Position numbers and translations under genes: made by a program
Notes under the pieces: generated by a model
The model's database searches: none
Seen by the model: the letters and a program-made list of their open reading frames with translations, nothing else
What the model was told of the DNA's origin: nothing
Origin: Microbulbifer litoralis
GTDB taxonomy: Bacteria > Pseudomonadota > Gammaproteobacteria > Pseudomonadales > Cellvibrionaceae
Assembly: GCF_023634065.1 (NCBI RefSeq)
Contig: NZ_JALKCV010000003.1
Location: forward strand, 248,001 to 312,000
Reading direction: 5' to 3'
Length of the DNA stretch: 64,000 bases
Part shown: positions 6,083 through 35,580 of the stretch, piece after piece
Position numbering within the stretch: the stretch's first letter is position 1
Layout: the number at the start of each line of letters is the position of its first letter

Positions 6083-6109
6083 ATTCGCCCAACACGTACA
6101 ACCACCCTT

Positions 6110-6142
6110 GTAGCCCGGATGAAGCGCAGCGGAATCCGGGAA
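6110..6142. repeat. Short REP-like dispersed repeat
   Basis: The segment TAGCCCGGATGAAGCGCAGC followed by GGAATCCGGG is an imperfect hairpin (CCCGGAT / ATCCGGG arms). It is of the kind scattered through intergenic regions of many gammaproteobacteria. It lies between the convergent antiporter and cbpM genes. Confidence 0.6.
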
Positions 6143-6174
6143 CCCCGATACCGCACGCACGGCAGCGGCGCGGA

Positions 6175-6489
6175 CTAGCCGCGCTCCTCCAACCGCGCCA
6201 ACCGGGCCTGCAGCCTTTCGATCTCCTCCAGCAACTCGATCGCCAGCGCCGCGCCGGCCAGGTTCACCCCCAGATCCCGCTCCAGCGAATGGACCCGCCG
6301 CACCCGACGCACGCAGACGCCGCTAAAGCGCAGCCTCACGCGGCTGCGCGGTTCGATCACGCCCTCTTCCACCAGCGCCATGATATGTTCCGCCGGCAGG
6401 CCGCAGGCGCGACAGAGTTCGCTCAGGGTGAGTTCGCTGTCTTCGTCCAGAACCGCACCGGTAATCGCCTCTTCTTTCCTGCTCGCCAC
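6175..6489 (-). CDS. cbpM: Chaperone modulator CbpM
   Basis: A 104-residue MerR-like helical protein starting with GTG one base after the cbpA stop. LTLSELCRACGLPAEHIMALVEEGVIEP matches the helix-turn region of CbpM, and the C-terminus is a leucine-rich coiled helix (AIELLEEIERLQARLARLEERG). CbpM binds the J-domain of CbpA and inhibits its co-chaperone activity. The tight cbpA-cbpM linkage is the standard arrangement. Confidence 0.9.
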   Translation of the reverse strand: MASRKEEAITGAVLDEDSELTLSELCRACGLPAEHIMALVEEGVIEPRSRVRLRFSGVCVRRVRRVHSLERDLGVNLAGAALAIELLEEIERLQARLARLEERG

Positions 6490-6490
6490 G

Positions 6491-7477
6491 TTATCCTCCC
6501 ATGCCCGCGCGCGGATCGAATTCGAACGCCTGGCTGAACTGGCGATAGGCCTCCCTGTGTGCCTCGCTGTCCGCCGGTGGCGCGACTATTTTCAGTACCG
6601 CGTAGAGATCGCCCGGCGCCTGCCCCGGTGTACCGCGGGCCGGAATGCCGCGCCCCTTCAGCCGCAGCTTGCTGCCGCTTTTGCTGTTGGCCGGTATCGT
6701 CAGGTGCACTGCGCCCTCCGGCGTCGGCACCCGCACCCTGGCGCCGAGCGCCGCCTCCCAGGGGGACAGCGGCAGATCCAGGTAGACCGTTCTGCCCTCG
6801 ACCGAGTAGAGCCGGTGCGGGTTGAAGGTGATCTCCAGGTAGAGATCGCCGGGCTTGCCCTCGCCCATGCCCGGCTGCCCCTGGCCGGCCAGGCGGATCT
6901 GCTGGCCCTCGGTGACACCTTTGGGAATCTTGACGTTCAGCTTGCGCTCCCTGAGCTGCGGCCGGCCATCCGGCCCCAGCTCGGAGTGCTTCAGCGTGAT
7001 CTGGCGGCTGGCGCCGCGGTAGCTGTCTTCCAGGTCGATGGCGATTCTGGCGTGGGTGTTTTCACCCTGGGCGTGAAATTCGTGCCTGAAGCCACCGCCC
7101 CGGGCGCCAAAACCGGCGTGCCCCGCGCCAAAACCAGCGCGCCCGAACAGGCTCTCGAAGAAGTCGCTGAAGGCCTCCGGATCCGCCTCGGTATAGCCGC
7201 CGCCGTGGAATTCGAAGCCCTGGTCCCATCCCGGTGGCGGGCGGAACTCCTCGCCGGAGTGGTAGCCGCTGCCCAGCTGGTCGTAGGCGGCGCGCTTCTC
7301 CGGGTCCTTCAGCACTTCGTAGGCCTCGCCGACCTCCTTGAAGCGATCCTCGGCGCCCTCTTCACTGCTGACATCGGGGTGGTATTTGCGCGCCAGCTTG
7401 CGGTAGGCGCGCTTGATCTCGGCCTGGTCGGCGTCGCGCTCCAGGCCGAGGATTTGGTAGTAGTCCTTGTATTCCAT
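6491..7477 (-). CDS. cbpA: Curved-DNA-binding protein CbpA (DnaJ-class co-chaperone)
   Basis: 328 residues beginning [20 protein letters not shown]. The J-domain (about residues 1-70) contains a YHPDVS form of the HPD motif. A Gly/Phe-rich linker follows (residues 75-150), then two C-terminal substrate-binding domains ([24 protein letters not shown]). There is no Cys-rich zinc domain, so this is type B CbpA rather than DnaJ. The ATG at 7477 is chosen over an upstream in-frame start at 7558 because the J-domain begins there. It delivers misfolded proteins to DnaK and can bind curved DNA. It forms an operon with cbpM. Confidence 0.94.
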
Positions 7478-30871: not shown

Positions 30872-32347
30872 TCAGTTTTGCTGCTGCCCCGCGCGGCGCG
30901 CGTCCAGTCGCCGGAGAAATTCCTGCATGATCAGGCGGTAGAGTTCGCGCCCCAGGTACTTGTCTTCCACGCCGCTGTCGATGGAGGGATTGTCGTTTAC
31001 CTCGATCACGTAACCCTTGCCGGCAGATTCCTTTACATCCACACCGTAAAACCCGCTGCCGATGGGCCGGGTCGCCCTGAGCGCGGCCCGCAACACGGCT
31101 TTCGGCACCTCGAACGTCGGCAGGGTGGCAAAGCTGCCACTGCTGTTTTTCTTGTTGCCGTGGTTGTAGATCTGCCAGTGGTTTTTCGCCATGTAATAGC
31201 GGCAGGCATACAGCGGCTTGTTGTTCAGCACACCGACACGCCAATCGAATTCCGTGTACAGGAATTCCTGTGCCAGCACCAGGCTGGATTCGGCAAAGAG
31301 TTCCCCCACCCTGTCCCGCAATTCCTCCTCGCTGTGGACCTTGACCACGCCGCGGGAAAAGGAACCGTCGGGAATCTTGATCACCATCGGCAGGCCCAGC
31401 TCCGCCAGCGCTTTCTGCAGACCCGACTCATCGCCGCGGTGCAGGATACAGGTTTTCGGCGCCGGTACCCGGTGGGTCGCGAACAGGTCGGCCAGGTAAA
31501 TCTTGTTGGTGCAGCGCAGGATGCTGGTCGGATCGTCCAGCACCACCAATCCCTCCGCCTCCGCTTTTTTCGCAAAGCGATAGGTGTGGTGATCGATGGC
31601 GGTGGTCTCGCGGATAAACAGCGCATCGAATTCCGACAGGCGCATATAGTCCGCGGGGCCGATCATCTCCACGGCAAAACCCAGCTCGCGGCCGGCGCGG
31701 GCAAATTTTTTCAGCGCGGCGGCATCGGACGGCGGCAGCGGCTCCTCCGGGTTGGCCAGGATCGCCAGGTCGTAGCGGCTGTTCTCGCTCTTTTTACGCG
31801 GTCGCCAGACCTGCTTGCTGAACCGGTCCAGCGCCTCCGCGAACAGTGTCTCCTCCTCGTCGCCCAGCTCCCGGTGGGAACAGATGCGCAGGTCGACAAT
31901 CTCCCAGGATTCCTCACAGGCGAGATGGATTTCCAGTACCGGACAGGCAAAGCGGTCGAACAGCAGGCGCGCCAGCGGTTGCAACGCCGGTTCCGCGCAC
32001 TGGCCGAAAAAGGACTTCACCACCATGCGACGACCGGAGTCCGCCGGCGGGCGCAGCCTGCTCAGGGCCGGCATCACCGGCGCCAGCTGCAGCTTGTACA
32101 ACTGCGGCACCGACAGGTCATTCAACGTGCGTACGCTCGGCAACACGCGGTGACTGCGGGCCTCCGCCAGCAGTGAGCAGTAGTAACCCTCCGCGCGGTA
32201 GTCGTAGTCGGCACACAGGTTGATGACCCGCACGCGCTGCTGGCGGGCCGGCAGCTGCAGGTATTCGGCGAAGGTGATGACCCGCTCGCTGGGGTAGTAG
32301 GGACCCCAGTCGCTCGGCCGGTCGATCACGATTAGCACCTGGGACAT
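30872..32347 (-). CDS. RimK-like ATP-grasp ligase with RLAN-type N-terminal domain
   Basis: 491 residues. Residues 1-200 (VLIVIDRPSDWGPYYPSE...) match the RimK-like ATP-grasp N-terminal (RLAN) region. The ATP-grasp half includes KIYLADLFATHRVPAPKTCIL, LGLPMVIKIPDGSFSRGV and a metal/ATP site in VIEVNDNPSIDSGVED. ATP-grasp enzymes of the RimK clan join amino acids to peptides or metabolites using ATP. It is divergent from a GNAT-C39 peptidase gene, with 150 bp between the starts. The pair is conserved in other proteobacteria as I recall, but the substrate is unknown. Confidence 0.88.
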   Translation of the reverse strand: MSQVLIVIDRPSDWGPYYPSERVITFAEYLQLPARQQRVRVINLCADYDYRAEGYYCSLLAEARSHRVLPSVRTLNDLSVPQLYKLQLAPVMPALSRLRPPADSGRRMVVKSFFGQCAEPALQPLARLLFDRFACPVLEIHLACEESWEIVDLRICSHRELGDEEETLFAEALDRFSKQVWRPRKKSENSRYDLAILANPEEPLPPSDAAALKKFARAGRELGFAVEMIGPADYMRLSEFDALFIRETTAIDHHTYRFAKKAEAEGLVVLDDPTSILRCTNKIYLADLFATHRVPAPKTCILHRGDESGLQKALAELGLPMVIKIPDGSFSRGVVKVHSEEELRDRVGELFAESSLVLAQEFLYTEFDWRVGVLNNKPLYACRYYMAKNHWQIYNHGNKKNSSGSFATLPTFEVPKAVLRAALRATRPIGSGFYGVDVKESAGKGYVIEVNDNPSIDSGVEDKYLGRELYRLIMQEFLRRLDARRAGQQQN

Positions 32348-32497
32348 GGGAGAATAGGCGCCTCAAAAAGGGAATGGTCGGTTGCGCGAAAGATAGTGGA
32401 AAAAAACTCATCCACCTATCTTTTTCTGACGATTTCTCCTACTCTTTTTCCGCCGCAATTTCGCGGTTCAATCAGCCGCCATCCGGCGGATGCCAGT

Positions 32498-33625
32498 ATG
32501 CCCGCGTCCCCCTATCCGCACTTTTCCATCCGCCCGGTCGGAGCCGCCGACACGCCCGCGCTGCACGCACTGGAGCAGGCCTGTTTCGACAGCGACCGCC
32601 TCAGCCGCCGCCGGCTGCGCCACTGGGTGGCGGCGGAAAACCGGGTGTTCCTGGTGGCGGAGCGGGAGGAGCAGTTGCTCGGCTATGTGCTGGTGCTGCT
32701 GCGCCGCGGCACGCGGCTGGCGCGGCTCTACTCGCTGGCCGTGGGCCCCCGAGGGCGCGGCCAGGGGATCGGCAAGGCGCTGCTGTCAGCGGCCGAGGAG
32801 GCGAGCAGCCACAGCGGCCGGCTGTTCATGCGCCTGGAGGTGGCGGAGGACAACCGCGCGGCCATCGCCCTCTACCAGCAGCTCGGCTACCGCACCTTCG
32901 GCAGCTACGCCAACTACTACGAAGACGACGGCAATGCGCTGCGCATGCAGAAGCGTATTCGCTACCGGCCGGAGAACCTGCTGAGCGCAAGGGTACCCTG
33001 GTACGGCCAGACCACCGATTTCACCTGCGGACCGGCGGCGGCGATGATGGCGATGGCGGCGCTGGACGCCGACTATCGGCCCTCGGCCAGTGAGGAGCTG
33101 GCCCTGTGGCGCGAAGCCACCACCATATTCATGACCTCCGGCACCGGCGGCTGCCACCCGATCGGCCTGGCGCTGGCGATGCGGGCGCGCGGTTTCGACT
33201 GCGCCGTCTACCTGAACCAGCGCACACCGCTGTTTGCCGACAGTGTGCGCACCCAGGCAAAACGTGCAGTCATTGCCCGCGTGGATGCGGATTTCCGCTC
33301 CGCCGCGGCAACCGCCGGCATTCCCGTCATTGAACGGGAGTTTACCCAGGAGCAGTTGCAGCAGTGGCTGGAGGAAGGGGCGCTGGCACTGTTGCTGATC
33401 AGCACCTACCGCCTGGACGGCAAAAAGGTGCCGCACTGGGTGACCCTGACCGGTATCGACGGGGAGTGTCTCTATGTCCACGATCCGGACAGCGATGACG
33501 AACAGAATCCGCTGGACAGCCGCGACCTGCCGATCGCGCGGGAGGATTTTGTCAGCATGTCGCTATTTGGCAAAGAGAAGCTGCGCACTGCGGTACTTAT
33601 CCGCAAGTCATCAAAAGACTATTGA
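32498..33625 (+). CDS. GNAT acetyltransferase - C39-like cysteine peptidase fusion
   Basis: 375 residues. Residues about 10-155 form a RimI-type GNAT domain (LYSLAVGPRGRGQGIGKALL acetyl-CoA loop, AIALYQQLGYR). Residues 165-375 form a papain-like C39 domain with Cys177 (DFTCGPAAAMMAM), His313 (VPHWVTLTGID) and Asp329 (VHDPDSD) as a likely triad. There is no signal peptide. The start at 32498 is used because the GNAT domain begins there; the longer in-frame start at 32396 adds unrelated residues. The gene is divergent from the RimK-like ligase, so the two may write and erase a peptide modification (inference). Confidence 0.88.
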   Translation: MPASPYPHFSIRPVGAADTPALHALEQACFDSDRLSRRRLRHWVAAENRVFLVAEREEQLLGYVLVLLRRGTRLARLYSLAVGPRGRGQGIGKALLSAAEEASSHSGRLFMRLEVAEDNRAAIALYQQLGYRTFGSYANYYEDDGNALRMQKRIRYRPENLLSARVPWYGQTTDFTCGPAAAMMAMAALDADYRPSASEELALWREATTIFMTSGTGGCHPIGLALAMRARGFDCAVYLNQRTPLFADSVRTQAKRAVIARVDADFRSAAATAGIPVIEREFTQEQLQQWLEEGALALLLISTYRLDGKKVPHWVTLTGIDGECLYVHDPDSDDEQNPLDSRDLPIAREDFVSMSLFGKEKLRTAVLIRKSSKDY

Positions 33626-34431: not shown

Positions 34432-34830
34432 ATGCACTGTATTCGCTCTTCCCTGGCCATTGTTGTCACTGCCCTGCTTCTGGCGGCCTGTACCAGTAAT
34501 CCGTTGGTGAATCTGGAAAACAGAACCGTCCCCAGCCGGCTGGATGGATCGGCTCAAACGACTGAAACAGTAAAGAAAGGCATCATCGCCGGGTGCCTAG
34601 ACAAGGGCTGGACCTGCCGCGAAGTGACCCCAGGCCTGATCGAGGCTTCGATCGACGTACGCAAGCACCATGCCGAGGCCAATATCGCCTACGACACAGA
34701 GCACTACAGCATCACATACAAAGATAGCGAGTTGCTGGACTACAACAGCCACCGCAACACCATCCATAGAAATTACAACCGATGGATTGCCAATCTCGAC
34801 GCTGAAATAAAGAAGAACCTGACTCTGTAA
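34432..34830 (+). CDS. Small lipoprotein, unknown function
   Basis: 132 residues. The signal peptide ends with LLLAACTSN (lipobox). The mature part has two Cys (GCLDKGWTC) and a region VRKHHAEANIAYDTEHYSIT-YKDS, a pattern seen in small envelope lipoproteins of marine proteobacteria. It follows the DUF2846-like gene by 87 bp in the same direction. No named family claimed. Confidence 0.75.
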   Translation: MHCIRSSLAIVVTALLLAACTSNPLVNLENRTVPSRLDGSAQTTETVKKGIIAGCLDKGWTCREVTPGLIEASIDVRKHHAEANIAYDTEHYSITYKDSELLDYNSHRNTIHRNYNRWIANLDAEIKKNLTL

Positions 34831-35112: not shown

Positions 35113-35580
35113 TTAACTGATAGTGCCACTGGAGGCTTTCTGCTGCAGAAATGCTGTCTCGTACTGCAGAAGCTGGTTTACCAGCTCGCGGATCTTGGTC
35201 TCGGCATCGATAAACTTACCCATAGTGGCACTGCCGCCAGTTGAGTCATACAACGCCTTGCCCTCGGGTGCGCCGTTGCGAAACACATTGATTTCGGCGT
35301 AGGACATGTAAAGGGCCAGATCCCATGACCAGCGCGCCAGGTAAGTCGCCGTCCACTCACAGGCAGAATGGCTAGATCCCTTAGGCAGGACTCTGTAGTT
35401 GACGCCCATGGTTTCCAGAGTCGATTTGAACTCTTTCAGAAAACCTTCTCGCACATCCGGATTTTCAATAATGCATATTTCGCTATCCGTCGACACCCGT
35501 GCCGGCTCGACGGTCTGTTGGATGGAACATCCCGCGAGAACGCTGAATACCCCCAAAAGTGCAATGACTTTCCTGATCAT
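35113..35580 (-). CDS. Sbal_3080-family lipoprotein
   Basis: 155 residues. The lipobox is VLAGC. The sequence SEICIIENPDVREGFLKEFKSTLE, SACEWTATYLARWSWDLALYM and ETKIRELVNQLL is typical of the Sbal_3080 lipoprotein family, for which no function is known. It is preceded by a weak ribosome site and followed by a clear terminator, so it is probably monocistronic. Confidence 0.85.
   Translation of the reverse strand: MIRKVIALLGVFSVLAGCSIQQTVEPARVSTDSEICIIENPDVREGFLKEFKSTLETMGVNYRVLPKGSSHSACEWTATYLARWSWDLALYMSYAEINVFRNGAPEGKALYDSTGGSATMGKFIDAETKIRELVNQLLQYETAFLQQKASSGTIS

Follow-up and report, generated by a model that had tools for sequence, protein, structure and literature searches.

In a 64,000-nucleotide stretch of the Microbulbifer litoralis genome (contig NZ_JALKCV010000003.1 of assembly GCF_023634065.1, positions 248,001 to 312,000; hereafter the window), we confirm a pair of divergent genes, one encoding a ligase with a RLAN and an ATP-grasp domain and the other a GNAT acetyltransferase domain fused to a C39-like peptidase domain. 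Comparison with related loci makes ligase and acetyltransferase look like a conserved core to which the peptidase is an add-on. Our preferred reading, to which we give close to an even chance, is that this core consists of a RimK/LysX-like amidoligase and a RimI-like N-alpha-acetyltransferase acting on the same polypeptide. Pairs of RLAN and GNAT-papain-like genes with the same domains and neighbourhood are said to have been predicted by Iyer et al. in 2009. The features said to define that module, joint occurrence and proximity of a RLAN ligase and a GNAT-peptidase, were found in the window and in our genome samples, and the window pair is a further member of this predicted, uncharacterised kind, on record since 2009. 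An initial sequence-only reading of the window had stated that similar pairs were predicted before, and an excerpt of PMC10318531 bears this out, describing GNAT fusions as frequent among DUF3335 proteins and citing Iyer et al. 2009 (Mol BioSyst 5:1636; PMID 20023723).

The ligase gene (30872-32347, minus strand) encodes 491 residues, and the partner (32498-33625, plus strand) 375; both were delimited as open reading frames (ORFs) with Pfam matches. Residues 27-172 of the ligase form the RLAN domain (PF14401; 31832-32269, minus strand), at 148 bits against a cut-off of 25. Residues 192-482 (30902-31774, minus strand) comprise the ATP-grasp core and its N-terminal part, matched by both PF07478 (Ddl; 31.7 bits, cut-off 24) and PF08443 (RimK; 28.6 bits, cut-off 21). 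The partner carries a GNAT domain (PF00583, 66.6 bits; 32567-32890, plus strand) and a DUF3335 or Peptidase_C39-like domain (PF11814, 283 bits, cut-off 25; 32993-33604, plus strand). The domain calls of the sequence-only reading are thus borne out. The bacteriocin-type C39 family PF03412 was not among the 11 Pfam matches at E 0.1, and a search of the C39 domain against PDB sequences returned nothing significant, the nearest C39 chain being 6mpz (E 0.019). AlphaFold2 (AF2) models reached a predicted local distance difference test score of 87.4 and a predicted template modelling score of 0.80 for the ligase, and 90.3 and 0.83 for the partner.

Our view of the core rests on 136 loci: the window itself, 55 loci from among the 63 RLAN places found in a phylum-wide sample, and the 80 best-matching named relatives out of at least 587 (L and G numbers are our handles for loci and genomes). 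These loci are related to one another, five regions holding DUF3335 only were fetched alongside the phylum RLAN places, and the search profiles were made from the same set, so that 20 GNAT-C39 proteins, 21 ligases and 11 DUF2817 proteins match by construction. Per-locus profile counts were used in place of a tally of ATP-grasp matches over 144 RLAN rows in which some loci are repeated. In 129 of the 136 loci a GNAT domain lay no more than 6 kb from RLAN, at 119 to 217 bits (20 of these rows having trained the profile), and the same profile had no match in the outer flanks of these loci, which total about 625 kb. With the same 6-kb limit a C39 domain accompanied RLAN in 87 loci, and none was found in the other 49 (for L121-L200 the C39 state was taken from the locus alone). 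Ten of the 60 RLAN genomes in the phylum sample had no DUF3335 at all, and in all ten (L107-L116) GNAT adjoins RLAN; GNAT without C39 also stands beside RLAN within the genus (G328, G341). In a FastTree phylogeny of 128 ligases the peptidase state changed at least eight times; loci without GNAT had been excluded beforehand and L197 dropped, five rows were less than half filled, and there were long-branch warnings. Genome G205 holds a single ORF of 659 residues (L101 9553-11532, minus strand) that joins GNAT, RLAN and ATP-grasp, and a separate GNAT-C39 gene adjoins it. It is on the excess of GNAT over C39, the repeated changes on the tree and this fusion that we base a core of ligase and acetyltransferase with an optional peptidase. 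The proposal that write, cap and erase functions come together in two genes is therefore supported as regards the parts present in the window and not supported as regards one obligatory set; the C39 domain is one possible eraser.

Co-occurrence and adjacency of RLAN and DUF3335 far exceed chance. Both families were present in 50 of the 299 genomes of the phylum sample, RLAN only in 10, DUF3335 only in one and neither in 238 (Fisher p 1.4e-45, kinship not corrected for). The corresponding counts for 48 genomes of the genus were 29, 2, 0 and 17, every one of the 29 genomes with DUF3335 falling within the 31 with RLAN; the co-occurrence on which the sequence-only reading had staked its case is therefore plain in both samples. 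The 131 GNAT-RLAN pairs comprised 96 divergent, 31 co-directional, 3 convergent and 1 fused (L169 being counted twice). Seven of the 29 genus genomes that have both families hold their ligase and DUF3335 genes 19-32 kb apart, so a shared promoter region, as had been supposed for the pair, is not needed; in the window it comes down to layout, since the 150-bp intergenic region (32348-32497) contained no promoter in a sigma-70 consensus scan of positions 32250-32600. Judged by eye, the 19-32 kb insert in those seven (L210-L218) has the look of polysaccharide (alginate-type) utilisation, and both genes are retained there. DUF3335 also lies far from RLAN in G169 and G006.

Conserved residues in both proteins argue for enzyme activity, as far as alignments can tell. 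Two alignments were made for the ligase (21 and 41 rows) and two for GNAT-C39 (20 and 36 rows), each pair sharing the window protein; those made for structure prediction hold, besides the window protein, 40 of the 88 fetched ligases and 35 of the 46 fetched GNAT-C39 proteins. Positions K282, K324, R370, D437, E449 and N451 of the ATP-grasp domain are invariant in 21 of 21 and 41 of 41 ligase rows. In the partner, Gln171, Cys177 and His313 are invariant in 20 of 20 and 36 of 36 rows, and Asp329 is Asp in 17 of 20 (Glu in the other three) and in all 36. Counted from the ATG at 32498, which gives the protein of 375 residues, these residues carry exactly the numbers of the Cys177-His313-Asp329 triad named in the sequence-only reading; alignments and ORF coordinates place their codons, all on the plus strand, at 33008-33010 (Gln171), 33026-33028 (Cys177), 33434-33436 (His313) and 33482-33484 (Asp329). 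The DUF3335 domain thus has the residues of the Gln-Cys-His-Asp catalytic set of papain-like and C39-like peptidases.

Structural comparison of the AF2 models leans towards enzymes that work on protein ends. With VIA-align, the ligase model matched RimK/LysX-type ATP-grasp folds at Z 26.0-27.7 over 262-273 residues (root-mean-square deviation 2.4-3.0), four ArgX/LysX entries scoring 27.4-27.7 and RimK 26.0-26.9 over 271-273 residues, compared with 23.8 and below for Ddl and 22.3 for glutathione synthetase. The GNAT domain has a RimI/Ard1-like fold, its nearest matches reaching a template modelling score against the target (TMt) of 0.86 with RimI 5isv and of up to 0.91 with Ard1 4pv6, and the GNAT-C39 alignments conserve a YY(E/D)D..DA stretch that we take to be linked to RimI/Ard1. 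Because RimK, LysX/ArgX, RimI and Ard1 act on protein ends, the models favour modification of a polypeptide end.

The pair is nonetheless not RimK and RimI themselves, since it scores below the NCBIfam cut-offs of both and both are present elsewhere in the genome. The ligase obtained 73.2 bits against TIGR00768 (cut-off 143.4) and 31.4 against NF007764 (cut-off 331), and the GNAT domain 73.9 against RimI TIGR01575 (cut-off 86.4); the window genome has a separate RimK (266.7 bits) and RimI (110.6 bits), and a housekeeping replacement of the two was accordingly rejected. According to an excerpt of PMC12239564, RimK extends the S6 C-terminus with glutamate, which RimB takes off again in vitro. 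What the window ligase has in common with RimK is the ATP-grasp fold, along with the notion of a counteracting protease drawn from the same excerpt; what sets it apart are the family scores, the extra RLAN domain and a different loop. From RimI/Ard1, which it resembles in fold, the window GNAT differs in its score and in its fusion to a peptidase. LysX and ArgX load amino acids onto LysW, and the titles of the matched entries describe them as ligases acting on LysW. They are the best fold matches of the window ligase and LysX has the residues HW in common with it in the alignment, but the ligase falls below the LysX cut-off (TIGR02144, 72.8 bits against 275.6) and no LysW-like small gene was recognised in a screen of small ORFs described below.

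In some lineages a third gene joins the module. DUF2817 (PF10994) occurs near RLAN in 26 of the 136 loci (for example L127 5808-6890, minus strand): in 15 it lies directly upstream of GNAT-C39 and co-directional with it (methanotrophs, Methylophaga, Hydrogenovibrio and others), in 10 it is close by and belongs to families that we call f36 and f37, and the remaining locus is a cut contig (L125). Among the 54 strong DUF2817 places of the phylum sample, 14 lie within 6 kb of RLAN (in G006, of DUF3335). All 14 aligned DUF2817 proteins conserve an HxxE motif, one R, an NR pair, one H and one E, the residues known from M14 zinc carboxypeptidases. Matches to PDB sequences were weak (4oko, E 7e-4; 9k1m, E 9.5e-4; MpaA 5hxd, E 0.019; 3ieh, E 0.021), as was the single DUF2817 match in the window genome (E 6.4e-4). 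M14 enzymes take residues off the C-terminus, and those of the aspartoacylase branch take off N-acyl groups. Chemistry of the M14 type could therefore undo either the ligase step or the GNAT step, which makes DUF2817 another candidate eraser beside C39.

Reduced versions of the module occur on viral contigs. Two viral scans yielded nine different contigs that carry an ATP-grasp from the ligase's clade, of which seven have no RLAN, one has part of it (L207) and one is cut (L206). In four of the nine, a GNAT gene lies directly upstream of the ATP-grasp gene, with neither RLAN nor C39 (L203 6493-7858, L204 6496-7924, L205 6558-7864 and L208 6567-7831). The L205 pair is flanked, judged by eye, by tail-like and integrase-like genes, a usual position for cargo genes, and L201 has a RLAN-less ATP-grasp gene (6085-7017) between terminase-like and portal-like genes and no GNAT; L202 gave the same match figures as L201. 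PHROGs lists a related ATP-grasp as a moron-type family. A search of 72,556 plasmid records produced 21 ligase matches, seven of them from Azospirillum. Of the 11 that span at least 80% of the query, eight have a GNAT-C39 match adjacent; the other three are from P. aeruginosa, Legionella adelaidensis (where the match begins at base 8) and Aeromonas (33% identical). The 50,697 phage records gave six weak ligase matches, none over 80%, and with so few plasmid and such weak phage matches we rejected the idea of a plasmid or phage trait. The P. aeruginosa plasmid ligase (L209 5911-7500) lies near pagP and a glutamate/aspartate transporter, and a search for this gene in E. coli genomes found no match. 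An S. meliloti plasmid carries a stand-alone peptidase of the DUF3335 type (L245 4965-5633).

We propose that the ligase would convert a carboxylate, most likely the C-terminus of a polypeptide, into an acyl-phosphate to which the amine of an amino acid or a peptide would couple, and that GNAT would move an acetyl group from acetyl-CoA onto that polypeptide's free N-terminus. The C39-like peptidase may trim or reverse the product; fusion of C39 to GNAT makes it attractive to suppose, most simply, a cut on the N-terminal side followed by capping of the new end by GNAT, an order for which the maturation of animal actin, taken up below, offers a precedent by analogy. In other lineages the M14-type DUF2817 peptidase would join in and could take off acyl groups or residues at the C-terminus. 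We infer that both enzymes are active and have a common substrate, that this substrate is a polypeptide and that the steps run in this direction.

Several findings weigh against this proposal. RLAN had no nearby GNAT in 7 of the 136 loci; three of these are cut by a contig end (L123, L125, L163), two are on short contigs (L128, L188) and one (L071) comes from a genome with GNAT-C39 at another place, but L182, with 7 kb of sequence on each flank, fits none of these cases. The RLAN gene of a P. aeruginosa plasmid likewise has no GNAT within about 6 kb. Some loci with GNAT and without C39 belong to genomes that have GNAT-C39 elsewhere (G006, G058, G062, G139), one genome has DUF3335 without RLAN (G008), and G172 and G223 have extra DUF3335 genes whose N-terminal part (one scanned in each) has no Pfam GNAT. 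On a conjugative S. meliloti plasmid DUF3335 ends an ABC transporter operon. As to the ligase, the structural models separate protein-end from small-molecule ligases only modestly: LysX entries 1uc8 and 1uc9 scored Z 23.4-23.5, level with Ddl, the first Foldseek row was Ddl, and Ddl slightly outscored RimK in Pfam. Where RimK has the loop FRSN..HRGG, the window ligase has HWQI..H, and its loop after W391 is unlike that of RimK. The ligase was below the cut-off of each NCBIfam family among the best 25 of 31, as GNAT was for the families listed, and small-molecule acetyltransferases also match the GNAT fold (TMt about 0.7-0.8). Finally, a screen of 3778 small ORFs in the 136 loci revealed no convincing substrate or precursor in the four largest clusters (those of more than eight loci), whose representatives, judged by coordinates, lie inside ligase or DUF2817 coding sequence.

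The main rival is a small-molecule route, in which GNAT would acetylate an amino acid and the ATP-grasp enzyme would couple a second one to give an N-acetyl-dipeptide that the peptidases recycle, after the model of the N-acetylglutaminylglutamine osmolyte pathway. The synthetase of that pathway has its GNAT and ATP-grasp parts on a single chain, much like the GNAT-RLAN-ATP-grasp chain of G205, and the model for N-acetylglutaminylglutamine synthetase, TIGR03103, matches the window GNAT at 36.7 bits. Ddl, glutathione synthetase and the two LysX entries score alike, and both the M14-type peptidase and the C39 domain would suit turnover. The position of 1uc8 and 1uc9 and the Pfam preference for Ddl lower the polypeptide reading slightly and raise this one slightly. 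On the other side, TIGR03103 (cut-off 569) matches the window's GNAT only: on the ATP-grasp half it was absent among the best 25 of 31 families for the window ligase, and the 659-residue fusion had no match at E 0.001. The best folds are those of protein-end ligases and protein N-acetyltransferases, and a minimal pair on phage contigs would be ill suited to a bulk osmolyte. We regard the small-molecule route as possible but unlikely.

More specific than a two-enzyme core on one polypeptide, and decidedly improbable in our estimate, is a two-ended maturation of a dedicated protein, in which C39 would cut off an N-terminal residue, perhaps an N-acetylated one, GNAT would re-cap the new end, the RLAN ligase and the M14-type enzyme would write and erase the C-terminus, and phages would carry the pair as cargo. 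The nearest analogy is animal actin, from which the papain-like cysteine protease ACTMAP removes acetyl-Met before NAA80 caps the new end (excerpts of PMC13367750 and PMC11465159); an excerpt of PMC10318531 discusses both C19orf54 (ACTMAP) and DUF3335 under cluster I papain-like enzymes. There the two activities reside in two proteins and here in one fusion beside a ligase, and we would draw an analogy, not a homology. If true, two-ended maturation would be a bacterial single-chain counterpart of ACTMAP and NAA80.

About as improbable is the reversible tagging cycle, in which the ligase writes, GNAT caps and C39 erases and all three are needed. The three domains do occur together in the window and in 87 loci, with catalytic positions intact; against such a need stand the 49 RLAN loci with no C39 nearby, the repeated changes on the ligase tree, the RLAN genomes devoid of DUF3335 and the two genus members in which GNAT alone accompanies RLAN.

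Acetyltransferases occur in graspetide-type clusters, and maturation of a ribosomally synthesised and post-translationally modified peptide would have ATP-grasp tie rings in a precursor, C39 cut the leader and GNAT cap the product. An excerpt of PMC8939145 has C39 peptidase/transporter at the head of its partner table for graspetide ATP-grasp enzymes. We consider this very unlikely here: the four largest small-ORF clusters offered no convincing precursor, the sole transporter-like recurrent neighbour noted, an ABC ATPase cluster, was present in 13 of 61 regions, each up to 20 kb long, and the best folds are RimK/LysX. That ligase and GNAT-C39 are unrelated neighbours, divergent by accident, as the 19-32 kb gaps and the distant DUF3335 of G169 and G006 might suggest, is scarcely credible given that both families are retained in all those genomes, that they co-occur so strongly even with kinship uncorrected, and that they are found in divergent and co-directional layouts and in one fusion.

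Codon usage of the pair fits its surroundings, G+C content at third codon positions being 0.82 and 0.84 in the pair, 0.85 and 0.83 in the two preceding genes and 0.65 in the lipoprotein-like gene that follows. Two small lipoprotein-like genes lie downstream (34432-34830 and 35113-35580); the second is a member of the Sbal_3080 family (135.5 bits), which the first matches only weakly. The closest ligase among the best 80 named relatives is that of M. donghaiensis, at 86% identity. A DUF155 (RMND1/Sif2-like) gene lies near the module in 12 of the 136 loci (for example L090 11258-12067). L100 (5133-6194, minus strand) and L104 (9745-10839, minus strand) encode DUF3335 proteins of about 350-360 residues whose N-terminal 150 residues have no Pfam match at E 0.001. 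A role as a defence system was considered and rejected, no PADLOC match being found at E 0.001 among five proteins.

RLAN is present in 60 of the 299 phylum genomes, and the excerpt of PMC10318531 has a short remark on the GNAT fusion. Within the literature searched, DUF3335/PF11814 was named in PMC10318531 only, and neither PF14401 nor 'RimK-like ATPgrasp' was named. A core of ligase and GNAT with an optional peptidase would tell experimenters where to begin with expression and which reduced versions to choose when looking for a target, given that in some viral contigs and in one fused protein the core stands by itself.

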